A stretch of DNA of 25,462 nucleotides from a virus. The notes below the pieces were generated by a model that was given only the letters and a program-made list of their open reading frames with translations, made no database searches and was not told the DNA's origin. Both the position numbers and the translations under genes were made by a program. Where the stretch lies: positions 1 through 25,462 of IMG/VR virus record IMGVR_UViG_3300027969_000397; one strand, given 5' to 3'. Of the stretch, positions 2,917 through 25,462 are shown in pieces. Position 1 is the stretch's first letter. Every line of letters begins with the position of its first letter.

Positions 2917-3146
2917 TAGGTACTTATTTTCTTGGGCCTTCCTATCATGCCTTTTCTGGCTTGTTTGCGTTCTTCTCTTTTTGCCTGTATTTCTATGCGC
3001 CTAGTTGATGCTTCGTTGCGTATTTCTGAAAGCCAATATCGTGCCTTAATGCCTGCTTCGTCTGAGCCTTTGTATTCAAATCGTTCTTGCCACTTAAAAT
3101 ATTCCTGAAAAGCAGCAATCATTTTATCGTGGCTTTCTGAACTCAA
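2916..3146 (-). CDS. Small basic protein after gp46, unknown function
   Basis: 76 aa, unrecognised. It is predicted mostly helical, with an aromatic N-terminal half (AAFQEYFKWQERFEYKG), a middle ARYWLSEIRNEAS helix and a strongly basic C-terminus ending in GRPKK, which resembles an AT-hook core. The start is taken as TTG at 3146, overlapping the gp46 stop as TTGA. GGAG (3155-3158) sits 8 nt upstream of it, whereas the next in-frame ATG (3122) has no good ribosome-binding site. Its place between gp46 and the nuclease suggests a DNA-related role, but that is inference from position and charge only. Confidence 0.75.
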   Translation of the reverse strand: MSSESHDKMIAAFQEYFKWQERFEYKGSDEAGIKARYWLSEIRNEASTRRIEIQAKREERKQARKGMIGRPKKIST

Positions 3147-4921
3147 GCAACAATCTCCACATCGTTTGAATAGCTGGTAAATCCGTTTTCTTTAATAACC
3201 TTGAGCACATGATTAACACGACTGGCCAAATCATCTCTATGACTAATTAAGAATACATTCTTATTGCGTTCACGAGTCATCTTTTTAAGTACCGCAATAC
3301 TTGATTCAACTCCGCTAGCATCCATACCACTATCAACCAGTTCGTCGATGAATAACAGGTTAATTGCTTGATATAAGTTTTCCCATACATCACGGAATGC
3401 CCAGCTCATAGACAAAATAAGCCTATTGCGTTCACCACGTGATAGATTGTCGAAGTCTAGATCCTGTCCTAGCTGTGTAATAATAACAGTTAGATCGTTT
3501 TGAAATTCTACTAGATGTGGCAGACCAATCTTATCTAGATAATAGGTCAGGCGCTGATTTAGATAGGCAAGATTTTGATCGATAATTCGCTTACGGATAA
3601 AGCTATCTTTGTTTGTCAATAACTTATGTAAAAACTCTTGATGATCTTTAACACGCACAAGATTATTCAACCCTTCATAGTCTACTTCCTGTACCGCAGT
3701 ATTGCGTAATTCTTCAATTTGTTCAATGTAAGGATTATCTTCTGCAACTTTAATTTCTAAATCACGCTCTAAACCGCTTAGAGTATTTTTGTGATTAAGG
3801 GCTTGTTCTAGATTGTCATAGATTACTGTAGGACACACGCCTAATTCGCCAACTAGGCTAAGTGCTTCGTTGAGTTCGCTGAGTTCTTCGCTGTGAGTTT
3901 TTAAATGTCCTTGACTTTCTTCAACCTGTTTGCTTTTAGCAGTCATCATTTCATCATGCTTGATGTCATGTAGATCTTGACCGCAACTATGACATTTGTG
4001 ATCTGCAAGAGTTATTAATTCTTTTTCTAACTTTTCCAGTGTTCGTTGTTCTCTTTCTAGTGTACTGGTCTGTTTGGCAACAAGAACTGTTAGACTATCA
4101 CGTTCTTTTTTACTTTTATTCCACTCTACTAGAGCACGTTGATTGGCAATTTCTTCATCAATCTCAACATCCAGTAATTTTTCAATTGCTCTAGCTAAAT
4201 TAGCAAGAGCAGTTTCGTGTTGCTCTTCCCACAGACGTTGTTTACGCTCAAGAGCTTCAATACTCTGTTGAATACGTTCATTGCTGGCTTTGATAGTTTC
4301 GAGTTTTATATTTTCTGTGGAAATACTATCTTTACTCTGCTTGACCTGTTCTTTAAGAGCTTCGGCTTTTTCACTTAATTGTGTAATACCCAACAACTGT
4401 TCAATAATAGCACGTTGATCTGCAGCCTTCATAGAAAGAAACGGCTCTGTATAAGTGTTTAAGGCCACAAGATGTTTGAACATGTCATGGGTCATGCCAA
4501 ATACATCTTCGATATCTTTTTGTGTTTCTCTTGAATCGCCTTGACTTTCATCCTGCTCTAGGTTTTCTTGTTCTTGACCGTTAACGGTAAATTTTAAAAT
4601 GTTAGGTTTACGACCACGTTCAATGTGATAGTCAATACCGTCCTTTTCAAAACTAACAGTACACAACATACCTTTGTTATTGATCTTGTTAACAAGGTTA
4701 TCTTTCTTGATATTTGTTAGCGCAGTACCAAAGATTGCATAGCTAAGGCCATTGATAATAGTGGTTTTACCCGTGCCATTACGAGCTCCGCTGTCGTCGC
4801 CACCTAGATCTAGATTCTCACCTAGCACAAGAGTTAATTGCCCCTTGTCAAAGTTAATTGCCTGAGTCTGTGCGCCCACGCTCATAAAGTTTCTAACTGT
4901 TAGGTCTTTGATTTTAATCAT
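3143..4921 (-). CDS. 46: gp46 recombination endonuclease subunit (Rad50-like ATPase)
   Basis: Large subunit of the T4-type gp46/gp47 exonuclease, which resects DNA ends for recombination-dependent replication and host DNA breakdown. SMC/Rad50 layout: N-terminal Walker A ending NGTGKTT (residues 48-54), coiled coil from about 180, a zinc-hook CHSC (310-313) at the coil apex, a second coil, signature LSRGERNR (493-500), Walker B NLLFIDE (521-527) and the switch His in ISHRDD (559-564). At 592 aa it is slightly longer than T4 gp46 (560). The ATG overlaps the gp47 stop as ATGA, which fits equimolar expression of the partners. All catalytic motifs appear intact. Confidence 0.97.
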   Translation of the reverse strand: MIKIKDLTVRNFMSVGAQTQAINFDKGQLTLVLGENLDLGGDDSGARNGTGKTTIINGLSYAIFGTALTNIKKDNLVNKINNKGMLCTVSFEKDGIDYHIERGRKPNILKFTVNGQEQENLEQDESQGDSRETQKDIEDVFGMTHDMFKHLVALNTYTEPFLSMKAADQRAIIEQLLGITQLSEKAEALKEQVKQSKDSISTENIKLETIKASNERIQQSIEALERKQRLWEEQHETALANLARAIEKLLDVEIDEEIANQRALVEWNKSKKERDSLTVLVAKQTSTLEREQRTLEKLEKELITLADHKCHSCGQDLHDIKHDEMMTAKSKQVEESQGHLKTHSEELSELNEALSLVGELGVCPTVIYDNLEQALNHKNTLSGLERDLEIKVAEDNPYIEQIEELRNTAVQEVDYEGLNNLVRVKDHQEFLHKLLTNKDSFIRKRIIDQNLAYLNQRLTYYLDKIGLPHLVEFQNDLTVIITQLGQDLDFDNLSRGERNRLILSMSWAFRDVWENLYQAINLLFIDELVDSGMDASGVESSIAVLKKMTRERNKNVFLISHRDDLASRVNHVLKVIKENGFTSYSNDVEIVA

Positions 4922-5928
4922 AAGTTATTGTAGATCTCCAACAGCATGGCCTTGTCAAAGGTATCGCTGTCAATAGCATTAATTTGATTCATTACAATTG
5001 TATCAACTGATTCAAAGTTGATATCGATGGGAGTGGATTGTGCATCCACTTCGACTTTTTCAGGAATTAACATAAGCTCACGCAATTTGTATTGCGGCAT
5101 AAATGTTTCTTTGATAAAGTTTGCTTCTTCAAAGCTGATAGGCAAATCAATAGTCACACGGCAATGCATCTTTTCTCTCAGAAGCTCGTCTGGTTTATCA
5201 ATAATCTGACTCAGTTTAAAAGTACGATAAACAGGTTGAGAAGTCCAAGTACGAAACTCAGGCTTGCCACCCCACTCTAACATCATCATGCCGCGGTCAT
5301 CATCGCCTGCGTCGGCATAGTTGTGAGGAAATGCATTGCCAATGTAATGTATGTTTCTATTGTTTTGTCGTTTATGAAAGTGCCCAGTGAACACATATTC
5401 TTGATTGGCAAAGTGCCCCGACTGAATAGTTCCGTGGTCAGGCATCTGCACCATAGCATTCATGTAGAAGCTGGGTAGTTCTAAGTGGCCAAACAGGTAT
5501 CGGCTTTTAATATCCGGAATAGTTTTCCACTCGTCGCCTACCAGCCAAGGCATAATTGTGACATCGTCTTTAGTGAGCCGTTCTCTAACAGGAATAATAT
5601 TAGGAAACAGACGCATAAACTCAATGCTGTTAATTTCACGTTTGTCTTTGTAGAACAAATCGTGATTGCCTAGGATGAAATAGACTTTTTCAAATGATTG
5701 ACTCAGCTTCTCTAAATTAGAAACTGTATAGTTCATGGTTGAGACATCAGTAGTGTTTCTGTTATGATGCCAATCACCTAGAAAGATTGCAGATTCACAA
5801 TTTTCTCGTTTGGCAGTTTCACAAAACCATGTGACAAAATCTTCACAATCCTGATTGTGCGTTCTGCTACCAGACTTTAATCCGAAATGAATATCAGTGA
5901 AGCAGGCTACTTTTTTAAATAATGACAT
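4918..5928 (-). CDS. 47: gp47 recombination endonuclease subunit (Mre11-like)
   Basis: Nuclease partner of gp46. Metallophosphoesterase motifs are all present and in order: TDIHFG (11-16), GDWHH (51-55), GNHD (87-90), GHLE (147-150) and GHFHKRQ (182-188), supplying the two-metal ligands. At 336 aa it matches T4 gp47 (339). A strong AAGGAG ribosome-binding site (5934-5939) precedes the ATG. A sigma70-like promoter candidate overlaps the end of gp55 just upstream. The downstream cistron gp46 begins within its stop codon. Confidence 0.97.
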   Translation of the reverse strand: MSLFKKVACFTDIHFGLKSGSRTHNQDCEDFVTWFCETAKRENCESAIFLGDWHHNRNTTDVSTMNYTVSNLEKLSQSFEKVYFILGNHDLFYKDKREINSIEFMRLFPNIIPVRERLTKDDVTIMPWLVGDEWKTIPDIKSRYLFGHLELPSFYMNAMVQMPDHGTIQSGHFANQEYVFTGHFHKRQNNRNIHYIGNAFPHNYADAGDDDRGMMMLEWGGKPEFRTWTSQPVYRTFKLSQIIDKPDELLREKMHCRVTIDLPISFEEANFIKETFMPQYKLRELMLIPEKVEVDAQSTPIDINFESVDTIVMNQINAIDSDTFDKAMLLEIYNNL

Positions 5929-8067: not shown

Positions 8068-8367
8068 ATGGCATCATATAATAAAACATCTCCCTACTAT
8101 AACACGGTTCAAAATAATTTATATCTTGAATTATTAACCATTCGTCCAGTGCCTGCGGAAGCTGACGATTACAAATACATAATAGAAACACAATACAAAC
8201 ATCGCCCTGACCTATTGGCCTTTGACCTGTATGGTAATCCAAGACTATGGTGGGTTTTTGTTCAACGCAATATGGAGACACTAAAAGATCCTATATACGA
8301 TTTTGCTCCTGGAACAATGATCTATTGTCCTAAAAAATCAAACATAGAACGATTTATCGGAATCTAA
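8068..8367 (+). CDS. 53: gp53-like baseplate wedge protein
   Basis: Short wedge component that links wedges in the T4 baseplate. The diagnostic block is HRPDLLAFDLYGNPRLWWVF (residues 50-69), followed by DPIYDFAPGTMIYCPKK, which is typical of this family. At 99 aa it is about half of T4 gp53 (196), keeping only the conserved core. One-base gaps on both sides place it in one translational unit with gp48 and the next gene. Confidence 0.88.
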   Translation: MASYNKTSPYYNTVQNNLYLELLTIRPVPAEADDYKYIIETQYKHRPDLLAFDLYGNPRLWWVFVQRNMETLKDPIYDFAPGTMIYCPKKSNIERFIGI

Positions 8368-10697: not shown

Positions 10698-12197
10698 ATG
10701 TCAATAGAAAAACGGTCGCCAGAAAAACAAGGAGGCTCAAAACTTCCAGTAGGCATCATGATGGCTAAAGTAGTTGGCTACCTAGACCCGTCATTTATGT
10801 GTGGACTTGAAGTGACCCTACTAAGAGAAAACGGCAATGACATAGGAGACACAGGACAATCTTACGCAGTAAAATATGCTAGTCCATTCTACGGATCAAC
10901 GGCATATGAAAATATGGGAATGAATGTTGGAGATTTTAACGACACTCAAAAAACTTACGGCATGTGGTTTCCTACAGTAGAAATAGGAACCACTGTATTA
11001 GTTGCCTTTATTAATGGTGATGCATCTGAAGGATATTTCATAAGTTGTGTCCCTGGACGATTTATGAATCAAATGATTCCGGCAATAAGCGGATCAAAAT
11101 CATTTGAAGCTTCGGCCGAACAAAAAAAGAAATATGATACAACAAACGCCTTACCGGTTGCAGAAATTAACAGAAAAGCTAATACTCTTGAAAAAGGTAC
11201 CAACACTGAGAAAATTAAAAAAGCCATCCACCCTATTGCTGATAGATTTTTAGAGCAAGGTCTATTAGAAGATGATGTACGGGGCGTGACAGATAGTAGT
11301 GGTAGACGAATGGTGCCTAATTCAGTTTTTGGCATTTCAACCCCAGGCCCGTTTGACAGAGGTCCTAACTCTAAAAAACAATACATCGGCAGCTCGCAGA
11401 GTAAAAGCCCCGTGCAAATGCCAGCCAGCAGACTAGGCGGAACCACACTGGTTATGGATGATGGCGATGATAGATATGTTAGAAAAACCCCTGCTGGTAA
11501 AGGCCCAGTCACTTATGCAGAAGTTGAAAAGAAAGAAAAAGGTGAAGTTGATATTCCTATCAATGAATATTTTCGAGTTAGAACAAGAACTGGCCATCAA
11601 ATTCTTTTACACAATAGCGAAGATTTAATTTATATTGGAAACGCTAAAGGAACCACTTGGATTGAGCTTACCAGCAACGGAAAGATAGATATATTTGCCG
11701 AAGATAGTATTTCAATTCACACACAGAATGATTTAAATTTTAGAGCCGACAGAGATATAAATTTTGAAGCAGGTAGGAATGTTAACATTAGAAGTGTTGC
11801 AAGGACACAAATAGAATCCGGCACACTTATGAATTTAGTTGTTGGAACAAATGGAAATATTACAACAGCAGGGACTATGAGTGTAGTTTCTACAGGTGCA
11901 ACATTTTTATCATCATCAGCAACAAATATAAACAGTACAGGAGCGTTGACTGCCACGGGCTCTGTAATTAACTTAAATGGTCCAACAGCAGCAAGAGGAG
12001 TAGCAGCTAAAATTTTACCAAGACATGATAATCCTGTTAGTAGTTCTGCAGAAAAATGGGGGGAGAAAACTAGGTATCAAAGCAAAACCCCAGTAAAGAG
12101 CATAATGAAACGTATACCAATGCACGAGCCTTGGTTGCTACACGAAAACCAAGCTCCGATGTCGTTAACTCCAACCGACACTGATAGAGAAAAATAA
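10698..12197 (+). CDS. 5: gp5-like baseplate hub needle, no lysozyme domain
   Basis: Central spike protein of the tail. The N-terminal OB-fold-like part (about residues 22-125) is followed by a charged, Pro/Gly-rich linker (130-290) where T4 gp5 has its lysozyme. The C-terminal region (293-430) begins YFRVRTRTGHQILLHNSED and continues as beta-strand repeats (IELTSNGKIDIFAEDSISI and onward) typical of the gp5/VgrG triple-stranded beta-helix needle. The end has IPMHEPWLLHENQAP, a motif I associate with marine T4-like gp5. No lysozyme catalytic pattern is visible. Total 499 aa against 575 in T4. AAGGA sits 8 nt before the ATG. gp25 begins 1 nt after the stop. Confidence 0.85.
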   Translation: MSIEKRSPEKQGGSKLPVGIMMAKVVGYLDPSFMCGLEVTLLRENGNDIGDTGQSYAVKYASPFYGSTAYENMGMNVGDFNDTQKTYGMWFPTVEIGTTVLVAFINGDASEGYFISCVPGRFMNQMIPAISGSKSFEASAEQKKKYDTTNALPVAEINRKANTLEKGTNTEKIKKAIHPIADRFLEQGLLEDDVRGVTDSSGRRMVPNSVFGISTPGPFDRGPNSKKQYIGSSQSKSPVQMPASRLGGTTLVMDDGDDRYVRKTPAGKGPVTYAEVEKKEKGEVDIPINEYFRVRTRTGHQILLHNSEDLIYIGNAKGTTWIELTSNGKIDIFAEDSISIHTQNDLNFRADRDINFEAGRNVNIRSVARTQIESGTLMNLVVGTNGNITTAGTMSVVSTGATFLSSSATNINSTGALTATGSVINLNGPTAARGVAAKILPRHDNPVSSSAEKWGEKTRYQSKTPVKSIMKRIPMHEPWLLHENQAPMSLTPTDTDREK

Positions 12198-12198
12198 T

Positions 12199-12636
12199 AT
12201 GACAAAAATATACAATAAAAAAACTGTGGCTTCGCTGACAGCTAACAGCGGCAGTGCTAGTTCTACTGCATTTACCTACAACGGATTTAGTTCTCAAGAA
12301 ACTAAATCTAACTTCAAACTTTATGACATTGATCTAGTTAAACAAGATATTATTAATCATTTTTATATTCGCAAAGGTGAGAAACTGATGAATCCAGATT
12401 TTGGCACAGTTATCTGGGATTTATTGTTTGAACAGTTTACTGAAGAAGTAAAAAAATTAATTACAGAAGACGTCGAACAAATTATCAACTATGATCCTAG
12501 GATAGCAATTAATGGCGTTATTATAGATAGCACAGACATGGGAATAAGAATAGAAGCAAATGTGACATATATCCCATTTAATATTAATGAAAGAATGACT
12601 TTTAATTTTGATAGAGAAAATAAAATTATAAACTGA
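12199..12636 (+). CDS. 25: gp25-like baseplate wedge protein
   Basis: GPW/gp25 family wedge protein that docks to gp6 and templates sheath assembly. The conserved core is INHFYIRKGEKLMNPDFGT (residues 52-70) then VIWDLLFE, followed by the LITEDVEQIINYDPRI helix and terminal beta strands. 145 aa against 132 in T4; the extra length is a Ser/Ala-rich N-terminus of about 35 residues. The weak ribosome-binding site and 1-nt gap suggest coupling to gp5. Confidence 0.93.
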   Translation: MTKIYNKKTVASLTANSGSASSTAFTYNGFSSQETKSNFKLYDIDLVKQDIINHFYIRKGEKLMNPDFGTVIWDLLFEQFTEEVKKLITEDVEQIINYDPRIAINGVIIDSTDMGIRIEANVTYIPFNINERMTFNFDRENKIIN

Positions 12637-12678: not shown

Positions 12679-15600
12679 ATGACAACAACGTCTAGACAAA
12701 ATAACTTAATTTTAAACGAAGACTGGACTAGAATTTATCAGACTTTTCAAAGTGCTGACTTCAAAAGCTATGATTTTGAAAATCTTCGCAGAGTTATTAT
12801 TGCTTATTTTAGAGAAAACTATCCTGAAGATTTCAACGACTATATTGAGTCTAGCGAGTATCTAGCACTCATTGATGCTATTGCATTCCTTGGCCAAAGT
12901 TTAAGTTTCCGAATTGACCTAGCCAGTCGTGAGAATTTTATTGAATTAGCTGAACGTAAAGAAAGTGTATTACGTTTATCTAAAATGTTGAGCTATAATG
13001 CTAAAAGAAATCTTCCGTCAAAGGGCCTATTAAAATTTGACACAGTTAGCACCACGGAAAACGTATTAGATAATAACGGTAAAAATTTAGCCCAACAGAC
13101 AATTGTGTGGAATGACCCAACAAATCAAAACTGGGCCGAACAATTTATCACAGTACTTAATGCAGCAATGACTGATAACACTGAATTTGGTCGCAGTCAA
13201 GGATCCGCAACAATTGATAGTATTCCAACAGAACAGTATAGATTTAGAACTTCGTCAAACGATGTGCCAATCTTTACTTACAGTAAAGTAGTAGCCGGCC
13301 GCCAAATGACATTTGAATTGGTAAGTACCAGTTTTAAAGGTAAAGAAGAATTATACGAAGAACCTCCGGTGCCTGGAAATCAAATTGGTTTTATCTATAG
13401 AAACGACGGCAAAGGTGGTACAAGTTCTAATACTGGATTTTTCCTAATGTTTAAACAGGGCAGTCTCGAACTTGCTGATTTTTCAATAGATATTCCGACT
13501 ACCAATGAACTAATTGCAGTTGATACTAACAATATTAATAATGACGATGTTTGGTTGTTCACACTAAATTCAGCAGGAGTACAGTTAAACGAATGGACAA
13601 AGGTATCCGCACTGATTGGAAATAATATTTCGTATAACAGCATTAATTCTAATATACGAAATATCTATTCTGTAATTACAAAAGAAAACGACAGAGTTGA
13701 CTTGGCATTTGCTGATGGAGTATACGGAAATTTACCACAAGGTGCATTTAGAGTATATTACAGAACCAGCAACGGCCTTAGCTATCAAGTAGCTCCAAGT
13801 GAGATGCGAGGCATCAGCATTGCTATCCCCTATGTTAACAAGTCGGGAGTGCGGCATACACTAACAGTGACACTGAGTTTAAAGTATACAATTAGTTCGT
13901 CTACACCCAGCGAGTCAGTGGCTTCTATTAGAAAAAATGCTCCTGCACAATACTATACACAAAATAGAATGATAACTGGAGAAGATTACAATCTTGCTCC
14001 GTTGTCAACTTCACAAAATATTTTAAAAGTAAAAGCAATTAATCGAGTGTCAAGCGGAATTAGTAGAAATTTTGATTTAATAGATGCCAGTGGAAAATAT
14101 TCAAGTATCAATTTATTTGCAGCAGACGGGTTAGTTTATAAAAGCGACATTGAAAGATCGTTAGCATTTAAATTCACTAACAAGATTGATATTATTAATT
14201 TTATAAGAAATAGTATTGAACCTATTTTTACATCTACTGATGTTTATAATTTCTATCTAACCAAGTTTGATAAAATTTTATTTACAGACATCAATTACAG
14301 ATGGAATCAACTCACAACAGACGTCAACAATTCTACAGGATATTTTTATAATTCTGTTGATTCTACAATTTTAAAAGTTGGATCTTACACAACCAGTACA
14401 CTAAAGTACATAACTCCTGGAACCTTAATAAAATTTACAGCACCCGCGGGCCAGTCGTTTAAGAAAGGAAAATTAGTAGCAACAAATGTAAACGATCCTG
14501 AACAAACTGATCGTCTTTGGACTAAAGTTGTAAAAATAACAGGCGACGGAACCAACGCCGGAAGAGGTGTACTCACGTCGGGCCTAGGTCCAGTACAGTT
14601 CAGCGATATAATTCCCACAGCAGCTATTGCATCTCGTATAGTGCCCAAATTTATTAATAATCTTTCTGTGGGCCTAGAAACAGAAATGATCAATTTAATG
14701 TTGGCTAATCTTAATTTTGGCCTACGTTATTCTATTGCTGACCTAGATTGGAAATTAGTTTCAACATCTAACTTGAATTTGCTGGGGAATTTTAGTCTCG
14801 GTAAAGCAGGAGACATTGCTAACACCAGTCTTGATTCATCGTGGATAGTTGCATTTGTTAAAGAAGCAGACGAATATTTTATTAGAATACGAGGTCTTAA
14901 TTATATATTTGGAAGCCTAGAAGAAACTCGGTTCTATTTTGATTCTGCTCAAAAAACCTATAACGGAAAAACTGGTGACGTTGTAAAAGACCAAATACGG
15001 ATCTTAGGCATTAACACAGATAGTAATCTGGTATACCCGTTAATACAAGATATTAGGTTTGAAGTCAGCGACACTATTAAATTTGATGACGGTTATCAAA
15101 GTACTGACGAAATAAAAATTGCGTTCTTTGATGCAGACAGTGACGGCGTAATTGATAACCCTGAAGCATTTGAACAAGTTGTCGGACCGGATCTAGACCT
15201 TAATTTCCTATTTTTTATAGAGTTAGTTGACATTGCAGGAAACAAGATTAAACAATTTGTCAATAATTCAGATAATCATATAGTAATAATACAAAGAGAA
15301 AGTCTAGTTAATGTGAATGATTATGTAGACGGCACACTGATATATTTCTATGACAGTGATGAAAACGTTGTAAAACGTGTTGATAAATCAACCAATACTT
15401 TGGTATTAGAAAGTACATATAGTGCTAACATCGGTCGTGCCGGATTGAAATTTCAATATATTCATAATGCCAACGTTGATCGAAGAATAGATCCTAGTTC
15501 AAGTAATATAGTAGATGTTTATCTATTAACAAGAAGTTACAACACTGCATTTAGAAATTATCTTGCAGGCGCTGCCGCAAAACCAGAAGAGCCAAACAGC

Positions 15601-16080
15601 GATAGTTTGAGGATTGCATTTGGGTCAAATTTAGATTTAATAAAATCTATATCAGACGAGATAATATATCATCCTGTTTCTTATAAAGTTTTATTTGGCC
15701 CTACGGCTGATGTAAAACTACAGGCAAAATTTAAAATTGTTAAAAATCCCAATAAATTAATTAACGATAATGATCTAAAGGTTAGAGTTATCAATGCAAT
15801 AAACGACTTCTTTGATATTAACAATTGGGATTTTGGCGATAGATTCTATGTGAGTGAAATGATAACATATGTTGTAAACACAGTCTCACCCGATATCAGC
15901 AACATGGTAATTCTTCCAAGGCAAATAACGCAGTCGTTTGGCAGCTTGTTTGAAATACAAAGTAGAGTTGACGAAATTTTTGTTAGCGGTGCTACAGTTG
16001 ATGATATAGAAATAGTTTCTTCTATTTCTGCATCCGAACTTAGAATATCCGTTGATTCAGTTATATCGAGTACAAATTAA
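12679..16080 (+). CDS. 6: gp6-like baseplate wedge protein, enlarged
   Basis: gp6 forms the inner ring of the baseplate wedge, binding gp25, gp53 and gp7. The N-terminus (about residues 20-120: VIIAYFRENYPEDFNDYIESSEYLALIDAIAFLGQSL, then DLASRENFIELAERKESVLRL) aligns well with T4 gp6. QNRMITGEDYNLAPL (428-442) and the C-terminal about 130 residues fit the baseplate J/gp6 fold. At 1133 aa it is nearly twice T4 gp6 (660). The extra material lies mainly between about 480 and 1000 and contains a canonical EF-hand calcium loop at 818-829. The giant gene begins 2 nt after the stop. Confidence 0.92.
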   Translation: MTTTSRQNNLILNEDWTRIYQTFQSADFKSYDFENLRRVIIAYFRENYPEDFNDYIESSEYLALIDAIAFLGQSLSFRIDLASRENFIELAERKESVLRLSKMLSYNAKRNLPSKGLLKFDTVSTTENVLDNNGKNLAQQTIVWNDPTNQNWAEQFITVLNAAMTDNTEFGRSQGSATIDSIPTEQYRFRTSSNDVPIFTYSKVVAGRQMTFELVSTSFKGKEELYEEPPVPGNQIGFIYRNDGKGGTSSNTGFFLMFKQGSLELADFSIDIPTTNELIAVDTNNINNDDVWLFTLNSAGVQLNEWTKVSALIGNNISYNSINSNIRNIYSVITKENDRVDLAFADGVYGNLPQGAFRVYYRTSNGLSYQVAPSEMRGISIAIPYVNKSGVRHTLTVTLSLKYTISSSTPSESVASIRKNAPAQYYTQNRMITGEDYNLAPLSTSQNILKVKAINRVSSGISRNFDLIDASGKYSSINLFAADGLVYKSDIERSLAFKFTNKIDIINFIRNSIEPIFTSTDVYNFYLTKFDKILFTDINYRWNQLTTDVNNSTGYFYNSVDSTILKVGSYTTSTLKYITPGTLIKFTAPAGQSFKKGKLVATNVNDPEQTDRLWTKVVKITGDGTNAGRGVLTSGLGPVQFSDIIPTAAIASRIVPKFINNLSVGLETEMINLMLANLNFGLRYSIADLDWKLVSTSNLNLLGNFSLGKAGDIANTSLDSSWIVAFVKEADEYFIRIRGLNYIFGSLEETRFYFDSAQKTYNGKTGDVVKDQIRILGINTDSNLVYPLIQDIRFEVSDTIKFDDGYQSTDEIKIAFFDADSDGVIDNPEAFEQVVGPDLDLNFLFFIELVDIAGNKIKQFVNNSDNHIVIIQRESLVNVNDYVDGTLIYFYDSDENVVKRVDKSTNTLVLESTYSANIGRAGLKFQYIHNANVDRRIDPSSSNIVDVYLLTRSYNTAFRNYLAGAAAKPEEPNSDSLRIAFGSNLDLIKSISDEIIYHPVSYKVLFGPTADVKLQAKFKIVKNPNKLINDNDLKVRVINAINDFFDINNWDFGDRFYVSEMITYVVNTVSPDISNMVILPRQITQSFGSLFEIQSRVDEIFVSGATVDDIEIVSSISASELRISVDSVISSTN
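15130..15165 (+). other. EF-hand calcium-binding loop inside gp6
   Basis: Residues 818-829 read DADSDGVIDNPE: Asp at 1, 3 and 5, Gly at 6, Ile at 8, Asp at 9 and Glu at 12, a full 12-residue EF-hand ligand set. Only one loop is seen and flanking helices are not obvious, so a single structural calcium site of the thrombospondin/dockerin type is as likely as a true EF hand. Confidence 0.7.
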
Positions 16081-16082
16081 AA

Positions 16083-19000
16083 ATGGCAGATAAAAATTTC
16101 CCCCAAAGTCAAATACCCATTAGAAAAACTTCTGAACTTTTACCTCAGATTTTTCAAACAGCAGCAAACCAAAAATTTCTAGCAGCCACTCTAGATCCGC
16201 TGGTGCAGCCAGGCGTTCTTGAAAAGAAAGTTGGATACGTTGGAAAAAGATATGGAAAAACCTATAAGTCTCAAGATGTTTATCTTGACTCCGACGAAAC
16301 TCTACGAAGCAGGTATCAATTAGAACCCGGAGTCGTAGTCAATCAAAATGAAAAAATAACAAATTTTTACGATTACTTAGATTTTAAAAATCAACTAAAG
16401 TTTTTTGGTAATCTAGGCGATCGAGACGATCTAACAGTATCTCAAGATCATTATACCTGGAATCCTCCTATTGATTGGGACAAGCTGATTAATTATAGAG
16501 AGTATTATTGGGTTCCCGAAGGCCCGCCTGTAATCAAGATTCTTGGACAGGCTCAAAATATCACAAGTACGTATAGAGTTACGGTGGGGGCGGGTAGTGT
16601 TTTTATCTTTACTCCTGACGGATTAACTAACAACCCTGCGTTAACTTTGTACAGAGGTCAAACGTACAAATTTCAAATTTCCGCCGCCGGCAATCCTTTT
16701 GTAATTAGGACAACAATTGATACTGGGTCATTAACTTATAATCCGTTATTTCCGTATTCCAAAGGCCAGTTAACAGTTTTTGATGGAAAAATATGGAAAG
16801 CTAAAAATAATATTAATGCTTCAGACGGTAGTACCATAGATGAAAATTCTGATGACTGGGAATTTGTTGACGTTTCTAACAACACCACATCTTTTGATTA
16901 CACAAAAGGGCTAACAAACAATGGAACAGAAAACGGAACAATTACCTTTACAATTCCGTTAGATTCGCCCGATGTTCTGTTCTACCAAAGTTATACAGAC
17001 CCAAATAAATTTGGTCGATTTATTATCTCTAACATAGAAGACAATACTAAAATTGATATTGAAAAAGAAATTATAGGAAAGGCAACTTATACCAGCAGTA
17101 ATGGTATTTCATTCAGTAATGGCATGGTTGTTTATTTTAGTGGAAAGGTTATTCCTGAAAAATATTCTAAACAATCGATGAACAACAAGTGGGTAGTCGA
17201 GGGAGTGGGCGATCGGATTTCATTAGTAAATGTTGCTGATCTAGTGATTTCTACAACATTTTCAAACACAAGTCCTGAGATCCTATTCGATAACGGTGGA
17301 TTTGATAGTCAGCCGTTTGATGATGCAACAGCATTCCCTAACGACAAAGACTACATTACCGTTAACCGATCCAGCCTAGATTCTAATCCTTGGTCTAGAT
17401 ATAACAGATGGTTTCACCGATCAGTGTTGGATTACGCACATTCTCTTAATGATTCCAGTTTTGAAGCTGCTGAAACAACTAGAGCCAAGCGCCCAATTAT
17501 TGAATTTAAACCAAACTTAAAACTATATAATCACGGAACAGTTGCACAACCAGCAGTAGATTACGTTGATGATTTCACTACCGATGTATTTTCAGTAATA
17601 GAGGGCAGTACTGGTTACATCATCGACGGAGAAAATCTATTTGATGGTGCAAGAATCTTAATCACCAACGATCGTGACATTTTAGCAAATAATCAAATTT
17701 ATATTGTAAAATTTATTACACATCTTAATGTAAAACAGATAAGTCTTATAAGAAGTTCAGAAGTAAACACAGATGTCGGCGAGTGCGTATTAGTTAGACG
17801 CGGCGCAAGAAATAAAGGATTCATGTTCCACTTTGACGGAACAACTTGGATTCGAAGCCAAACAAAAACCAGCGTCAACCAGCAGCCGTTGTTTGACATG
17901 TTTGATAGCGATGAAGTTAGTTTTGGAAACCAAGAAACGTATTCTGTTAGTTCTTTTGCTGGAACACCTATACTAAGTTATAAACTAGGAACCGGTGTAA
18001 TAGATAAAGAGCTTGGATTTAGTATAAGTTATCTTAATATTGATAACGTTGGGGATATACAATTTAATTTTAATTTAGACAGCGACATGTTTGTCTACAA
18101 AGTTGGTCAAAATAGTGTTGAGAAAAATTTAGCAACGGGATTTTATAAATTTAATGACACAAAACAATTTGAAAATGGGTGGATTAAATTAAATCCAGAA
18201 TTCACCCAACCCATAATTGACACAATATTGATTCAGACAACTACTAATAAAATTACAACTACAACAGTTGACTGGGCAACTTTAGATGATAGTGAAATTA
18301 CAAAGATATTATTTTATGTAAACGGAATTCAATCAAGATCTAACTATATTAGAACTGACGGAACTTTTGTTTTTACAAACAATTTTAATATCGGTGATAC
18401 AATAACAATTAAATTATTTGCAAATATTGCCCCAGATGATGGCTATTATGAAATTCCTCTTGGCTTAGAAAAAAATCCTCTAAACGAAAAAATAAAAACG
18501 TTTACACTAGGCCAAGCAGCTGACCATGTGTCTACCGGCTTAGAGATTGCAGATGATTTTATTGGCAAGTATCCGGGAAACAATAATTTACGAGATATAA
18601 GTGGGTATCAAAATTTAACAAGAAGATTTTTAAAACATTCTAGTCCTGCTCCTTTATCAATTATGTTATTATGCGATAAAGAAACAAATATTGTTAAATC
18701 TATTCAGTATGCAAAAAAAGCCTATACTGATTTTAAAAATAGTTTTATAACATTAGCCAATGAATTATATTATGACCAATCGCCTAATGATTTTATAGAT
18801 TCGATATTAGAAGAAATTAGTAAATCTCAAAATTCAAGCAGACCGTTTGCTGGATCAGACATGATTGGTAGCGGTGCATACTCGTCAATTGATTATGTTG
18901 TAGAAGACATAGGAATTAAAACATTTGCACTATCGGAAAAATTTGATTTATTAAAATTAAGTTCTAAGGCTGTATATGTTTACTACAACGGTAGACAGTT

Positions 19001-22000
19001 ATTAGTAAATCGTGATTACGAGTTTAATGCTACCTTTGGTTTTGTTAATTTAAAAATTAATTTAATTGAAGGTGACCGAATTCAAATTAGGGAATATGTT
19101 TCTACAGCCATAAACTTTATTCCTCCAACACCTACTAAATTAGGACTTTACAAAAAGTATACTCCAAGAAAATTTTTAGATGACACCTATCGTGTTCCAA
19201 AAGAAGTTATTCAGGGGCACGATGGCAGCATCACGGTTGCCTACGGCGATTTTAGAGATAATGTGCTGTTAGAATTAGAATATAGAATTTACAATAATAT
19301 TAAACAAGAGTATAACGAAAAAACATTTGACATTGATAGTGTGTTAGGCGGCTACTACGGGAATACACCGTTTGGTAAAGCTGAAGTAGACACTATAGTG
19401 ACCAATGAATTTTTAAAATGGACTTCAGGTACAAGTATTGATTATGTAAGTAATAGCTATTTTGATACAGAACAGGCATTTACGTATACCTATTCAAATA
19501 TGGCTGATCCAACCGGCACTAAAAATTTGCCGGGATACTGGAGAGGAGTATATCTATGGTTCTATGATACAACAAGACCACACCAATGTCCGTGGGAAAT
19601 GTTGGGATTTAGTGAAAAGCCTACATGGTGGGAAAGTGAGTACGGTCCTGCGCCTTACACGTCTAATAATTTAATTCTTTGGGAAGATATTCGTGACGGC
19701 AATATCCGTCAGGGTAATCGCGCTGGTATACAAGATAGATACAAACGCCCGTCGATAACACAACATATTCCGGTAGACAGTGATGGAAATTTATTAAGCC
19801 CGTTAGACTCGGGACTTGCTAGAAACTTTTCATTAATTAATAATCGAGGAGATTTTGTACTAGGTGACATTGGCCCTGTAGAATATGCATGGAGATCTAG
19901 CAGTGAGTGGCCGTTTGCTGTTGCAACTGTGCTTTGTCTATTAAAACCTATTGAATATATTGCTGACGGATTTAATCGATCTACAGTTTCTACAAACAAA
20001 TTAGGTCAAACAACTCATTCTACTACAGAATTATTTTTAACCATTGACGATTTGCTTTATCAGACAACTTTAGATACTCCTGTATCTGGATTGGTAATTT
20101 ATATTACAAATTATTTAAAGAGTAAAGCTTCGGATATTTCTATTTTAAAAGACAAATTGTCGAACCTAGATGTAAAATTATCTAGCAGACTTTCTGGATT
20201 TGTTGACCAAACTCAACAAAAATATATTTTAGATAGTAAAAATCCTAAATCGGTTACAAGCAGTATTTTTATTCCTCCTGAAAATTACGACATACATTTC
20301 AATGTAAGCTCACCAATATCAAATCTTACATATAGTGGAGTTATTTTAGAAAAAACTAATCGTGGATATAAAGTTTCTGGATATGACAATTCTATACCGT
20401 TATTCTATTATTATGAGGCAGTAAATTCTCAAACCGACCCAATCGTGACAATTGGTGGTGTTAGCGACAATTTCTTAGATTGGGCCGGTAATCAATTTTA
20501 TGGAAATGGTATTGTAGCTAGATTTAAAAATAATTATTACAGAAGCTTAAGCAGCCATACAAGTGATTTTGAATTTTCCGAAACTCAGAATAATGTTGTA
20601 ATTTGGAAACAATTGCCTAAGTTGCCAATGATTGGCGGAACTGAGGCACGTAAACGTAGAAATTTCAATAAACTTCAAGTTAAAAAATTATCCTACGGAA
20701 CAGTATTACCTACGATTCAGCAGGTAGTTGATTTTTTATTAGGCTACCAGGAATATCTAAAAAGCGTAGGATTTATTTTTGATTTTTATGATACTGAAAA
20801 TGCAACTGCCAGAGATTGGTTTACGTCAGTTAAAGAGTTTATGTTCTGGAGTCAGCATAACTGGGCTGATGGATCTCTGTTAACCTTAAGTCCGGCCGCG
20901 TCGTTTATAAAATTAAAATTCTCTGTGGGTGTTGCTGACAATATATTAGACAGTTTCTATGACTATCAGGTATTTAAAAATAACGGAACCCCACTTCTAC
21001 CTAGATATATTAATGTAAATAGAGACTTTCAAGAAATATCCATCTCTACTGTAGACACAAATGACGGTATTTATTTTTTAAAATTACATTTTGTTCTCAA
21101 AGAACATATTGTGGTGTTTGACGATAGAACAGTATTCAACGATGTAATCTATGACAAGCCAACTGGCTATCGTCAAGAACGTATAAAAAGTCGTGGCTTC
21201 CGCACCGTTGATTGGGATGGAGATTACACTAGTCCTGGATTCCTATTCGACAATGTTAATATCCAAATATGGCAACCATTTACAGATTATAAACTAGGAG
21301 ATATTGTTGCTTACAAGTCGTATTATTGGACTAGCAAATACAATCAACTAGGATTAGAAGAATTTCAAGATGCAGGATGGACTAAATTAGATTCTACTCC
21401 AAGTAAATCACTAATTCCCAACTTTGATTATAGAATAAATCAGTTTGAAGATTACTACGAAGTCAATACAGACGGTGTTGGATCGAGTCAGCGAGATCTA
21501 GCAAGACATGCAATCGGTTATCAACCAAGAGAATATCTACAAAATCTAGCAGAAGACGAAATAACTCAATTCAGAATTTATCAAGGTTTCATAAGGGAAA
21601 AAGGAACAGCAAACGCTATTGTTAAAGTTTTTGATAAAATCAGTAGAACTCAAGATGATAGTGTTGTGTTAAATGAGGAATGGGCATTTAAATTAGCTCA
21701 ATACGGCGGAACAGACCAGCTCAAAGAATTCGAATTTGAAATTACAAAAGACCAATTCAAAATTAACCCGCAGCCAATTTTAATAACTTACAGCGAAACC
21801 AGCGGAGTTTTGTTAGACCAGTATTTGCAAATCAATTCTTCTAAATTTACAATAGCAGACACTCCGTTTACCACAACGTTAAATCCTTTAGTAAACTATA
21901 CCAATAATTCACGCTCGGCTGGATTTGTCAACAAAAAACATGTTGATTTTATTTTAAAAAATAGAGATGACATATTAAATTTAAACATACGAGAAGTATT

Positions 22001-25000
22001 TGATAATACACATCTTTGGATTACATTTGACAATTCGTCGTGGACGGTTCTACGTTATAATGAAGAATTAGCACTAGGGATAGTTAGGGTAGAAAAAATT
22101 ATTCCCACCGAAATAGAAGTAGAGTTGAGTCGTATTCACAATTTAAAAGTAGGAGACATTGTAGGAATTCGATATGTATTAAATTTAAACGGATTCTTTA
22201 AGATCACAGCAGTCACTAATAAGACTATTATAGTAACTCCTAGTTCTACAGATGTTCCAGAAATAGAAGATAGTACGTCTTCAGTTTTAGGAATATTTAC
22301 AGTTGTAAGATTTTCAACATATCAACAGCTTGATCCACAAAAAACTTCAGTGCTCAAGTTAGGATCAAAGTTGTGGGTAGACAATAACGGGTCTGACAAA
22401 TGGGAAGTCATTGAAAAGACTAAGCAATATACCACATATGAATTTGGTGATTATGGAATTACCACCCCAATAGGGACAGGTACGTCTATTGTCTATCTTG
22501 ATAGCTTAAAACAAATTGCTACCGGTATTCCAGGTTCTGGTTATGTGATGATCTACACCGCTCAGACTGCTGGATCACAAATAACGCTAAAGCAAATTGT
22601 AGCACCACCCGATGGGTTTGAAACAGTAGTATCTGGTTCCTTTGGCAAAGTACTAGCAACAAGCCCAGACAACAAATGGTTGGCAGTGGGATCCCCAAAT
22701 GCCAGCGGTGTAAAAAGCGCCTACCAGGGAGAACTATATCAGTATAGAAGTTATCTTGCAGGAGAGATAGTTCTATATCAAGGTAAACTTTGGGAAGCAG
22801 TCAACAACATTGCATTAGGTGACGGCAGCTCAATTAATTTTAACAGCGAAGATTGGAAACCAGCAACAATTGTAAATGCTAATCCGGCCGCTAGGGGCAA
22901 CGGATTTACCGACCAGGGAATGATATCCTTGTACAAATATGTACAGGGACAATGGGAAATTGCAACTAGTTTTGTTAGTCCAAGACAAGCGGAATTTGAA
23001 GAATTTGGCAGTGCAATATCGATCGGAGTTTCTGGTACAACTTATTACATGGCGGTGTCGGCAGTTGGCTCACTATGTGATCCTGTAATAGGTCCTAACA
23101 CAGGTAAAGGTAGAGTATATCTTTACACATACAATGGAACTGAGTGGGCGCATTTAGAAAATACCAAGTATCTAGGAGTTTACCAACCATCGGCCTTATC
23201 TTTTTACCCTGCTGGATCAATAGTGTGGTCCGAAGGCAGTCTATGGGAAGCATTATACGACAACTATGGAGACGGTAGTTCGTTATCCCTATTGTCAAAC
23301 GACTGGAAAAAATTAGATCCAGTTTCTACCCAATCTTCTTTGCCGACTAACATTGCCATGGACGATGACGGCTCAACTCTAGCAGAAGGTCTGTTAAGTC
23401 CAACTCAACTGGCCGAATTAGTAAAAGAAGGTGACCAATTCGGTATTAGTTTAACTATGAGTCGTGATGGTGGAATTTTAGTTGTTGGGGCACCAAACAG
23501 CGACGGTCAATATTTTGCCAACTATCGAGGAAACTGGAATGTCTATCAAGAATATAGAGAAAATGATGTTGTAAAATGGCAAGGTGGCTATCATAGATTA
23601 ACTGACTCAACAACATCATCAATTACCAGCCTCAATCAATACCCAGATAATGGACTACCTTGGCTAAATGTAGGCGATAGTGCATCACCATCAACAGGTA
23701 AAATTTATGTATACGAAAGAGATGCAAATAATTTGTATTCTCTATCTCAGACAATTACAGCAGAATCTCTTTCTAGTATTAACGATACCACAAATTCTGG
23801 CATCATCGCATCTGGTGATCAATTTGGTTTTGCCATAGACATTGATGCATCGGGAACTACTATTGTTGCAAGTAGTCCGTTAGCCGATATTAATAAACAG
23901 AATCAAGGTGCAGCCTATGTATTTAGACGTGATTCAACTCAACAGCAATATAGATTAAAGCAAAAATTACAAAGTTTTGAATATTTTACCAATGAATATT
24001 TTGGTTCTAGTTTATCTATTACCCCATCGACAGAAAAGATTGTTATATCTGCAAAAAATTCTGGATACTTTATAACAACACAGTTTAACTTAGGTACAAC
24101 ATTTGATAAACGTAGAACTACATTTACTGATCCTAGAGGTTTTCCGGGCCAGGTTTATGTCTACGAACGAAAAGATGAAGGATATTTTTTAGTTGAAAAA
24201 CTAGAAGCTGACTTTCAGTCAGGCGAATCATTTGGATATTCTATAGATGCAGCAAGTTCAATCGTGGTAGTGGGCTCACCTACTTACCAAATTGACGGAT
24301 TGTCGGCCGGTAGAATTAGACTGTTTAAAAAGACTCCAGATACAAATAGTTTTAACACCATTGCACAACAAACTGATCTTATAGATATTGATTTGTTAAA
24401 AAATATTGAACTATACGATAATGTCAATAATAAAAAAATTGCCGACTTAGATATAATTGACGGATTTAAACTTAAAATCTTAGGTACTGCTGAACAAGAA
24501 ATTTCTTTTAAAACTGTTTACGATCCTGCAATATACATAACAGCCACTGAAGATCAAGTAATTGACGAGACACAGGCTTGGTTTGAAAAGAATGTTGGTC
24601 AGATATGGTGGGATCTCAGCGCAGTAAAATATTTAAATTACGAACAAGATGATTTTTCCTATAGAATAGGCAATTGGAATGCACAGGCAGTTGGATCATC
24701 TATAGACATATATGAATGGGTAGCAAGTCCGTTATTACCGTCCGAATGGAGCATATTGGCCGATACCGTAGAAGGACTGGTAGAAGGTATATCAGGCCAA
24801 CCTAAGTTTGTTGATGATACAGTTTTTAACACAAAAGTTTTTTATAATCCTAATACAGGATTAGAAACAGGAACAACTTATTATTACTGGGTCAAATCTA
24901 AAGCAACACTGCCAGACACCAATGGCCGTAGAATATCGGCGGCTTCGATCAAAACAGCAATAGATAATCCAATTGGTTCCGGTATTCCTTTTATTGCGGT

Positions 25001-25462
25001 AATAGGAGTTGACAAGTTTTTAGCTTACAATTTGCCAGCTGCAATTTCTACAAATACTGCCTTGATAAATTTTGAATACGTAAAAAATCTTAACCAGTTA
25101 AATCCTATTCATAGAGAATATCAGTTGTTAACCAGCGGCGTTGCTGACAGCTTGCCTTCAGTATATCTAGAGAAAAAGTGGATAGATAGTCTGGTCGGAT
25201 CAGACGAAGCAGGTAATTCTATTCCTGATCCTAAATTACCAGCTAAGAAAAAATACGGGCTAAGTTTTAGACCTCGTCAGAGTATGTTTATTAATAGAGA
25301 CAAGGCTCTAAAAATTGCTATTGATAATATTAATTTTATTTTATCAACTAGACCGTTTACAGATTTAATTAATTTTGAAAACTTAGATAAGTTAGATCCT
25401 ATTCCTAGCGAAGAATTAAATCAGTATGATATTAAGATAGATACTAATATAGATCTAGAGCA
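16083..25462 (+). CDS. Giant baseplate/tail structural protein, at least 3126 aa, 3' end outside window
   Basis: One frame stays open from the ATG at 16083 (2 nt after the gp6 stop) to the window edge, checked codon by codon. The N-terminus (residues 1-155: FPQSQIPIRKTSELLPQIF, YVGKRYGKTY, DWDKLINYREYYWVPEGP) looks like a conserved docking region of marine T4-like phages. A beta segment with NPALTLYRGQTYKF (184-197) is followed by a carbohydrate-binding-like module at 225-263. A Trp-rich block (1150-1296: GYWRGVYLWF, CPWEMLGF, PTWWESEYGP, YAWRSSSEWPF) follows. A second module lies at 1730-1770. Six FG-GAP-like repeats with inserted modules span 2186-2751. No signal peptide or enzyme motif is seen. 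Position after gp6 corresponds to T4 gp7 (1032 aa). I infer a wedge/peripheral protein that also displays host-binding domains. The ribosome-binding site is poor, suggesting translational coupling to gp6. Confidence 0.88.
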   Translation, partial: MADKNFPQSQIPIRKTSELLPQIFQTAANQKFLAATLDPLVQPGVLEKKVGYVGKRYGKTYKSQDVYLDSDETLRSRYQLEPGVVVNQNEKITNFYDYLDFKNQLKFFGNLGDRDDLTVSQDHYTWNPPIDWDKLINYREYYWVPEGPPVIKILGQAQNITSTYRVTVGAGSVFIFTPDGLTNNPALTLYRGQTYKFQISAAGNPFVIRTTIDTGSLTYNPLFPYSKGQLTVFDGKIWKAKNNINASDGSTIDENSDDWEFVDVSNNTTSFDYTKGLTNNGTENGTITFTIPLDSPDVLFYQSYTDPNKFGRFIISNIEDNTKIDIEKEIIGKATYTSSNGISFSNGMVVYFSGKVIPEKYSKQSMNNKWVVEGVGDRISLVNVADLVISTTFSNTSPEILFDNGGFDSQPFDDATAFPNDKDYITVNRSSLDSNPWSRYNRWFHRSVLDYAHSLNDSSFEAAETTRAKRPIIEFKPNLKLYNHGTVAQPAVDYVDDFTTDVFSVIEGSTGYIIDGENLFDGARILITNDRDILANNQIYIVKFITHLNVKQISLIRSSEVNTDVGECVLVRRGARNKGFMFHFDGTTWIRSQTKTSVNQQPLFDMFDSDEVSFGNQETYSVSSFAGTPILSYKLGTGVIDKELGFSISYLNIDNVGDIQFNFNLDSDMFVYKVGQNSVEKNLATGFYKFNDTKQFENGWIKLNPEFTQPIIDTILIQTTTNKITTTTVDWATLDDSEITKILFYVNGIQSRSNYIRTDGTFVFTNNFNIGDTITIKLFANIAPDDGYYEIPLGLEKNPLNEKIKTFTLGQAADHVSTGLEIADDFIGKYPGNNNLRDISGYQNLTRRFLKHSSPAPLSIMLLCDKETNIVKSIQYAKKAYTDFKNSFITLANELYYDQSPNDFIDSILEEISKSQNSSRPFAGSDMIGSGAYSSIDYVVEDIGIKTFALSEKFDLLKLSSKAVYVYYNGRQLLVNRDYEFNATFGFVNLKINLIEGDRIQIREYVSTAINFIPPTPTKLGLYKKYTPRKFLDDTYRVPKEVIQGHDGSITVAYGDFRDNVLLELEYRIYNNIKQEYNEKTFDIDSVLGGYYGNTPFGKAEVDTIVTNEFLKWTSGTSIDYVSNSYFDTEQAFTYTYSNMADPTGTKNLPGYWRGVYLWFYDTTRPHQCPWEMLGFSEKPTWWESEYGPAPYTSNNLILWEDIRDGNIRQGNRAGIQDRYKRPSITQHIPVDSDGNLLSPLDSGLARNFSLINNRGDFVLGDIGPVEYAWRSSSEWPFAVATVLCLLKPIEYIADGFNRSTVSTNKLGQTTHSTTELFLTIDDLLYQTTLDTPVSGLVIYITNYLKSKASDISILKDKLSNLDVKLSSRLSGFVDQTQQKYILDSKNPKSVTSSIFIPPENYDIHFNVSSPISNLTYSGVILEKTNRGYKVSGYDNSIPLFYYYEAVNSQTDPIVTIGGVSDNFLDWAGNQFYGNGIVARFKNNYYRSLSSHTSDFEFSETQNNVVIWKQLPKLPMIGGTEARKRRNFNKLQVKKLSYGTVLPTIQQVVDFLLGYQEYLKSVGFIFDFYDTENATARDWFTSVKEFMFWSQHNWADGSLLTLSPAASFIKLKFSVGVADNILDSFYDYQVFKNNGTPLLPRYINVNRDFQEISISTVDTNDGIYFLKLHFVLKEHIVVFDDRTVFNDVIYDKPTGYRQERIKSRGFRTVDWDGDYTSPGFLFDNVNIQIWQPFTDYKLGDIVAYKSYYWTSKYNQLGLEEFQDAGWTKLDSTPSKSLIPNFDYRINQFEDYYEVNTDGVGSSQRDLARHAIGYQPREYLQNLAEDEITQFRIYQGFIREKGTANAIVKVFDKISRTQDDSVVLNEEWAFKLAQYGGTDQLKEFEFEITKDQFKINPQPILITYSETSGVLLDQYLQINSSKFTIADTPFTTTLNPLVNYTNNSRSAGFVNKKHVDFILKNRDDILNLNIREVFDNTHLWITFDNSSWTVLRYNEELALGIVRVEKIIPTEIEVELSRIHNLKVGDIVGIRYVLNLNGFFKITAVTNKTIIVTPSSTDVPEIEDSTSSVLGIFTVVRFSTYQQLDPQKTSVLKLGSKLWVDNNGSDKWEVIEKTKQYTTYEFGDYGITTPIGTGTSIVYLDSLKQIATGIPGSGYVMIYTAQTAGSQITLKQIVAPPDGFETVVSGSFGKVLATSPDNKWLAVGSPNASGVKSAYQGELYQYRSYLAGEIVLYQGKLWEAVNNIALGDGSSINFNSEDWKPATIVNANPAARGNGFTDQGMISLYKYVQGQWEIATSFVSPRQAEFEEFGSAISIGVSGTTYYMAVSAVGSLCDPVIGPNTGKGRVYLYTYNGTEWAHLENTKYLGVYQPSALSFYPAGSIVWSEGSLWEALYDNYGDGSSLSLLSNDWKKLDPVSTQSSLPTNIAMDDDGSTLAEGLLSPTQLAELVKEGDQFGISLTMSRDGGILVVGAPNSDGQYFANYRGNWNVYQEYRENDVVKWQGGYHRLTDSTTSSITSLNQYPDNGLPWLNVGDSASPSTGKIYVYERDANNLYSLSQTITAESLSSINDTTNSGIIASGDQFGFAIDIDASGTTIVASSPLADINKQNQGAAYVFRRDSTQQQYRLKQKLQSFEYFTNEYFGSSLSITPSTEKIVISAKNSGYFITTQFNLGTTFDKRRTTFTDPRGFPGQVYVYERKDEGYFLVEKLEADFQSGESFGYSIDAASSIVVVGSPTYQIDGLSAGRIRLFKKTPDTNSFNTIAQQTDLIDIDLLKNIELYDNVNNKKIADLDIIDGFKLKILGTAEQEISFKTVYDPAIYITATEDQVIDETQAWFEKNVGQIWWDLSAVKYLNYEQDDFSYRIGNWNAQAVGSSIDIYEWVASPLLPSEWSILADTVEGLVEGISGQPKFVDDTVFNTKVFYNPNTGLETGTTYYYWVKSKATLPDTNGRRISAASIKTAIDNPIGSGIPFIAVIGVDKFLAYNLPAAISTNTALINFEYVKNLNQLNPIHREYQLLTSGVADSLPSVYLEKKWIDSLVGSDEAGNSIPDPKLPAKKKYGLSFRPRQSMFINRDKALKIAIDNINFILSTRPFTDLINFENLDKLDPIPSEELNQYDIKIDTNIDLE
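22638..24335 (+). other. FG-GAP beta-propeller-like region within the giant protein
   Basis: Six repeats start with an FG pair (residues 2187, 2308, 2453, 2581, 2640, 2717). Each is followed by hydrophobic strands and a GAP-like turn: VGSPNASG, VSAVGS, VGAPNSDG, ASSPLAD, ISAKNSG and VGSPTYQ. Blades then close with strands such as GKIYVYERD, GQVYVYERKD and GRIRLFKK. Three blades are interrupted by about 40-residue Trp/Tyr modules at about 2221-2260, 2361-2412 and 2486-2508. Six blades fit one closed propeller, though a seventh degenerate blade cannot be excluded by eye. Confidence 0.65.

Follow-up and report, generated by a model that had tools for sequence, protein, structure and literature searches.

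A predicted seven-bladed integrin-type propeller with CBM5/12-like modules inside a giant baseplate protein of a contractile phage

Introduction

FG-GAP propellers, CBM5/12-like modules, baseplate propellers and insertions of carbohydrate-binding modules (CBMs) are each already known, singly. In integrins, the FG/GAP motifs and the DxDxDG calcium motif have been defined, the latter in the 1-2 loops of blades 4/5-7 (PMC3192720). The FG/Cage face of the integrin ring, to which the 2-3 and 4-1 loops belong, is the one that receives the I domain, located between blades 2 and 3 (PMC12422189). Among phages, phiKZ gp131C (seven-bladed) and phi11 Gp45 (five-bladed, with glutamine cyclotransferase as its best match) are baseplate propellers proposed or modelled to function in receptor binding (PMC4901313). 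CBMs have been found inserted in a structural baseplate protein in the evolved Dit proteins of siphophages of Gram-positive hosts, where their function has been reported (PMC8540738 and its reference 10).

In the open-access literature, we found nothing relevant that links FG-GAP propellers with a phage baseplate or tail, and no description of an integrin-type propeller inserted in a wedge protein or of its stepwise decoration. In UniProt, at least one relative, A0A6J5L0K2, is not described as such. Here we report a computational analysis of a record of 25,462 bases from an uncultured large phage (the window), covering the insertion of such a propeller, its seven-bladed fold, the loop positions of its modules, cassette turnover, the order of propeller-free, bare and decorated forms on a tree, and purifying selection.

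The Giant Protein and Its Operon

The propeller occupies the middle of a single ORF of the plus strand that continues past the window's 3' end (Table 1); complete relatives of the encoded giant protein have about 4577 aa. Its core is homologous to the giant virion protein family phrog_10938 (E=1.3e-298) and has BLAST matches in six cultured phages; for the PA5oct homologue, the record marks detection by ESI-MS/MS. The gene follows gp6 in a gp53/gp5/gp25/gp6 operon, which is the place of gp7 in T4. No sequence homology to gp7 was detected by hhalign against seven gp7 sequences, a comparison of shallow profiles, and 'gp7' therefore denotes operon position only. Among the genes downstream of the giant protein in one relative (L017) is that of a collar/gp10-like protein. 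Assignment as gp8-like, through phrog_438, which T4 gp8 also matches, was rejected, the match being to a widespread module elsewhere in the profile. A small module of L017 (residues 3135-3210) is common to many unrelated virion proteins (phrog_438, 460, 701, 2885 and 708) and is apparently a promiscuous building block.

In three relatives (L107, L144 and L149) the giant ORF ends early, 2469, 1548 and 2250 aa past the core start as against about 2990, which may reflect a split protein or a miscalled contig. On the strand opposite to the structural operon, the window also encodes an SbcC/SbcD-like pair of the T4 gp46/gp47 type (3143-5928, minus) and, between recombination and other genes, a SegE-like GIY-YIG homing endonuclease (2482-2916, minus; 113.9 bits).

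Table 1. Features of the window that bear on the propeller and its surroundings
Feature	Position	Strand	Basis or remark
gp53-like baseplate wedge protein	8068..8367	+	above Pfam cut-off
gp5-like hub/lysozyme protein	10698..12197	+	
gp25-like baseplate wedge protein	12199..12636	+	above Pfam cut-off
gp6-like baseplate wedge protein, directly upstream of giant protein	12679..16080	+	
Giant baseplate protein, gp7 position	16083..25460	+	3126 aa in window, truncated by contig end
Fourth CBM5/12-like module, residues 225-262, N-terminal part, outside propeller	16755..16868	+	combined HMM
Core common to PA5oct, Atu_ph07, Phosso, SCTP-2, 121Q, Vibrio 2.275	19080..21953	+	BLAST
Left arm of host hairpin (WEVIEKTKQY)	22401..22430	+	propeller-free relatives run almost straight into right arm
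Seven-bladed FG-GAP (integrin-type) beta-propeller, residues 2114-2754	22422..24344	+	AF2 model, VIA-align, Pfam
Blade 1 (YG...GIP), residues 2123-2173	22449..22601	+	AF2 model, motif conservation
Blade 2, module 1 in 2-3 loop	22641..22973	+	AF2 model
CBM5/12-like module 1, residues 2222-2261, 2-3 loop of blade 2	22746..22865	+	combined HMM, CBM_5_12
Blade 3	23001..23180	+	AF2 model
CBM5/12-like module 2, residues 2373-2411, blade 3 to 4 connection	23199..23315	+	combined HMM
Blade 4, module 3 in 2-3 loop	23436..23759	+	AF2 model
CBM5/12-like module 3, residues 2489-2531, 2-3 loop of blade 4	23547..23675	+	combined HMM
Blade 5	23820..23969	+	AF2 model
Blade 6	23997..24200	+	AF2 model
Blade 7	24228..24368	+	AF2 model
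Right arm of host hairpin (NSFNTIAQQTDLID...)	24345..24392	+	comparison with propeller-free relatives
Conserved core 3' of propeller, present also in propeller-free jumbo phages	24420..25460	+	sequence comparison

The Propeller

An AlphaFold2 (AF2) model of residues 2107-2806, built from 38 sequences, has seven four-stranded blades in a closed ring (pLDDT 81, pTM 0.82), and a second model, of residues 1900-3010 (pLDDT 82, pTM 0.69), is consistent with it. By VIA-align, the propeller superposes best on integrin alphaL (Z 35.6, 3.1 A over 360 residues). The best solved matches are integrin alphaL, M, X and V (Z 32-35.6, 2.8-3.6 A, 351-379 residues), and dozens of further integrin alpha chains reach Z 32 or more. 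Foldseek also ranks integrins at the top, and Pfam FG-GAP_2 (PF14312) is matched with E=6.7e-18 (65.1 bits vs a cut-off of 23). Model, superposition and a relative with a bare propeller and seven clear FG blades (L209) agree on an integrin-type ring.

The F/Y-G pair is found in all seven blades of the window propeller and the GAP/Cage proline in five, blades 3 and 6 being without it. A set of 76 non-redundant relatives retains the pair throughout the ring; its glycine is present in 68-76 of them, least often in blade 1. None of the blades of the window propeller has the DxDxDG calcium motif, and the rare matches to it in relatives lie mostly within modules.

An earlier note on this DNA had described a six-bladed propeller at 22638-24335, made of six FG...GAP-like repeats. 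Six FG dipeptides with GAP/GSP-like partners do occur in that interval, but a six-bladed ring is ruled out by a seventh blade (YG) that adjoins it just upstream, and the domain extends over 22422-24344. Structure prediction, which the note had named as the test of a closed propeller, gave the closed ring, with integrin alpha propellers as the nearest solved structures. The attachment to the baseplate of a contractile phage also proposed there agrees with the position of the gene, in a baseplate operon with gp53, the gp5-like hub, gp25 and gp6 upstream.

The Insertion Site

In the window, WEVIEKTKQY is followed by about 640 residues and then by NSFNTIAQQTDLID. At the same site PA5oct, Atu_ph07, Phosso and SCTP-2 have a short W.V, about 10-20 residues and an I.....vD segment. 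The bounds of the insertion drawn from these empty-site relatives match the limits of the integrin superposition. BLAST against cultured jumbo phages finds the core to be common up to about residue 1957 and from about residue 2743 of L017; the part in between, about 150-1520 residues long, is not shared. In the giant proteins of the empty-site phages profile search found no blades, and neither did Pfam in the four phages examined with it. The propeller is missing also from 121Q and Vibrio 2.275, and is thus not part of a universal jumbo-phage protein; since these two align poorly at the site, an empty site is claimed for the other four only.

The Laminin_G-like domain of SCTP-2 was considered as an occupant of the site and rejected, since it lies beyond it, at residues about 3006-3160. 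Atu_ph07 (L098), whose giant protein has the site empty, encodes a stand-alone 393-aa FG-GAP protein annotated 'hemagglutinin' (243018-244199). The propeller had no tblastn match in 50,697 phage records, and a search of genome contigs gave one weak bacterial FG-GAP match only.

Modules and Loop Cassettes

Against a combined module HMM, modules 1, 2 and 3 score 3e-18, 2e-16 and 3e-13, E-values that are inflated and not independent because the HMM includes the window's own copies. This HMM delimits modules 1 and 2 slightly more narrowly than Table 1, at residues 2223-2260 and 2374-2410, and the fourth copy at 233-262. In an independent test with Pfam CBM_5_12 (PF02839), module 1 has E=1e-4 and 22.7 bits, below the cut-off of 26.2; 12 of 19 module sequences from the window and its relatives match this family, all below the cut-off. 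In profile comparisons with the PDB, the modules match chitin-binding domains of chitinases (2rts, 2e-4; 1ed7, 0.034) and a phage tail spike (8fqc, 0.012). Of the 76 propellers, between 57 and 75 retain each of the Tyr, Trp and Val residues of the signature. The aromatics characteristic of CBM5/12 (Y..G..V...G.LW ... W) persist in modules 1 and 2 as the Y (66-75 of 76), the Trp of LW (57-66, plus Y in 10-13) and the final W (73-74), and in module 3 as Y in 75, Y in 73 and the final W in 73.

Because the 2-3 and 4-1 loops of a four-stranded antiparallel blade share a face, all three modules would stand on one face of the propeller, as judged from the strand order of the model. This fits the display of modules from propeller loops that the earlier note had envisaged. 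That note had placed modules of about 40 aa in at least three blades; three are present, two of them (modules 1 and 3) inside a blade and one (module 2) between blades. The pattern given for them, Y..G.IV...G.LWEA...GDGSS...DW, is recognizable in all three, more loosely in module 3, which is without the GDGSS stretch.

Modules of this type are not confined to the ring. Besides the fourth copy of Table 1, the combined HMM finds weaker ones in the giant protein core near residues 1473 and 1735, and a similar module occurs in All3316/Cis13, a baseplate protein of the Anabaena (cyanobacterial) injection system. The copies outside the propeller suggest a module that is ancient and in general use in these baseplates. 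The giant protein of L017 scores 26.1 bits against the CBM_5_12 cut-off of 26.2, its best stretch (residues 1467-1502) being outside the propeller. This type of module is also named in the annotation (carbohydrate-binding module family 5/12) of a neighbouring wedge protein, the gp6-like protein of Vibrio phage 2.275 (L038, 3575-7438).

Decoration varies among the 76 propellers: 65 have three CBM-like modules, seven have two, two have one and two have four. Module 2 is missing in L066, L145, L148, L121, L122 and L159, and module 3 also in L159. Other cassettes, of 26-394 residues, occupy loops at ten further sites in relatives, seven on the module face (162, 266, 332, 459, 465, 564 and 629) and three on the opposite face (182, 212 and 248). 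Some correspond to segments found in wedge proteins of other families (phrog_708, 1e-20; phrog_2885; phrog_32294). The 373-394 aa insertion at propeller position about 212 in L168 and L171-L173, in the 1-2 loop of blade 3, has CBM-like stretches inside. Within the family, the length of the middle segment as a whole ranges from about 150 to 3000 aa.

Strong purifying selection acts on modules and blades to a similar degree. Pooled over 16 pairs sharing no sequence, and with synonymous sites partly saturated, modules have a dN/dS of 0.068, as against 0.050 in blade strands and 0.055 in blade loops. Low dN/dS with frequent cassette change indicates that these propellers change through whole cassettes rather than through rapid point mutation. 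Hypervariable receptor-binding tips were not seen, dN/dS being low everywhere.

Relatives and History

A search that used the core only, and so did not depend on the propeller, recovered 80 relatives close to the window, and every one with enough sequence has the propeller (L177 is diverged and partly matched). A PA5oct-centred search reached more distant relatives; of 60 in which the right-hand flank was found, 42 have at least three blade matches and 18 have none. In a core tree of 98 rows, the members without a propeller form one side of a single branch, and CBM-bearing propellers are nested within the rest. With the longest branches removed (72 rows), forms with no propeller, a bare propeller and a CBM-bearing propeller are separated, both splits at 100/99. 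No modules were detected in L177, yet it falls within the CBM-bearing group of the 72-row tree. L209 and L236 read as bare seven-bladed propellers.

The simplest reading of these relatives is that the propeller was built up stepwise, from hairpin to bare ring to decorated ring. The tree is unrooted, so that gain of the ring is not proven over loss. In L023 and L025 the propeller match has 30 stop codons when read in one frame, which makes a frameshift likely, through sequencing error or real.

Possible Functions

The best explanation, to which we give an even chance, is that the propeller is a wedge-mounted, modular platform for adhesion to the host surface, and thus a candidate host-gripping device other than the tail fibre. 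A complete integrin-type ring set into a beta-hairpin turn of the conserved giant protein at the gp7 position would give each wedge one propeller, and six wedges would present 18 modules. The ring would be a rigid display platform with the CBM5/12-like modules on its FG/Cage face, where relatives also have other cassettes; the decorated face would most likely be turned outward on the virion. Many weak, conserved contacts with host polysaccharide or other surface polymers may then help the baseplate to settle on the cell before fibre binding and tail contraction. An adhesive role is favoured by the baseplate location, the kept aromatics, the PDB matches to chitin-binding domains and a tail spike, and the phage precedents. 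Against it, the module dN/dS is nearly as low as that of the blade strands, with no sign of the diversifying selection typical of host-range parts; the modules score below the CBM_5_12 cut-off and have counterparts in the giant protein core and other baseplate proteins; and some cassettes are on the face opposite the modules. Moreover, whole lineages keep a module-free propeller, so the modules are not the reason the propeller is kept.

Several of these observations suit a serious rival, docking inside the baseplate, which is quite possible although we lean against it. The propeller and its modules would then serve as protein-protein interfaces, keeping adjacent baseplate proteins or the stems of tail fibres in place, and the module would be a generic structural mini-domain that lost sugar binding or never had it. 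The uniformity of purifying selection and the existence of bare-propeller lineages fit such a role, as do the modules of the same kind in the conserved core, the Vibrio phage gp6-like protein, the tail spike and All3316/Cis13, the likeness of loop cassettes to pieces of other wedge proteins, and the general standing of propellers as classic interaction platforms. However, the loss of entire modules (L066, L145, L148 and L159) and the turnover of large cassettes on both faces would be odd for a tight interface, and the aromatic positions typical of CBM5/12 are kept. That the closest CBM relatives are chitin-binding domains, and that conserved, non-diversifying modules suit a common environmental polymer, could instead point to an adhesin of relaxed specificity for particles, algae or chitin, by which the phage would stay in the vicinity of hosts without binding a host receptor; we regard this as improbable, a baseplate being generally less suited to it than head-mounted Ig-like domains. 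Gain and loss of beta-rich domains without selected function in a giant modular protein would account for the wide span of the middle segment, but is very improbable in view of the purifying selection on blades and modules, the conservation of the glycine in all seven FG/YG pairs and the presence of the propeller in every member of the window's clade with enough sequence.

An extension of the adhesion platform can be put forward tentatively, with more doubt than confidence: a fibre-independent, integrin-like adhesion head of contractile phages, for which a jumbo-phage lineage would have gained the propeller once and then, step by step, loop cassettes acting as exchangeable host-binding slots, in parallel with the later gain of the I domain by integrins. 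If the modules contact the host, these phages would grip cells by a domain built into the baseplate, not by fibres alone, and the integrin-like layout of a ring with loop-inserted binding domains would have arisen independently in a virus machine. The family forms a natural series, from empty hairpin through bare propeller and one to three modules to large cassettes, of which each step is testable, and the propeller site marks a position of the wedge protein that tolerates insertions.

Comparison with Known Systems

The phrog_10938 giant virion proteins of the RaK2/121Q/PA5oct/Atu_ph07 jumbo phages have a homologous core on both sides and the same place in the operon, but are without the propeller, its site being taken by unrelated beta-rich segments or a short hairpin. 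The baseplate propellers phiKZ gp131C and phi11 Gp45, likened here by their published description (PMC4901313), are separate proteins, unlike the wedge insertion. Evolved Dit proteins share with the window protein the insertion of sugar-binding modules (sugar-binding-like in the window) in a structural baseplate protein, but have no propeller, carry other CBM families and belong to long-tailed non-contractile phages.

Bacterial and giant-virus FG-GAP proteins (Pfam FG-GAP_2; BFVD matches) have the same repeat family and ring, but are not known as insertions in a baseplate wedge loop, and the structural matches have 10-15% identity. A0A6J5L0K2, from an uncultured Caudovirales member, is probably a true relative of the window propeller (22-25% identity).

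With the integrin alpha propeller the window propeller shares seven four-stranded blades, FG...GAP motifs (the aromatic-Gly pair in all seven blades, the proline in five) and its best superposition (PMC3192720, PMC12422189), as well as the insertion of domains into FG/Cage-face loops, of which the I domain is the integrin example. It differs in lying in a phage baseplate protein, where its flanks are baseplate core and not the thigh/calf and beta partner of a whole integrin alpha subunit, and in being without DxDxDG in the 1-2 loops of its blades. Whereas the integrin I domain, a von Willebrand A domain, is inserted between blades 2 and 3, the modules of the window propeller are CBM5/12-like and occupy the 2-3 loops of blades 2 and 4 and the 4-1 connection between blades 3 and 4.
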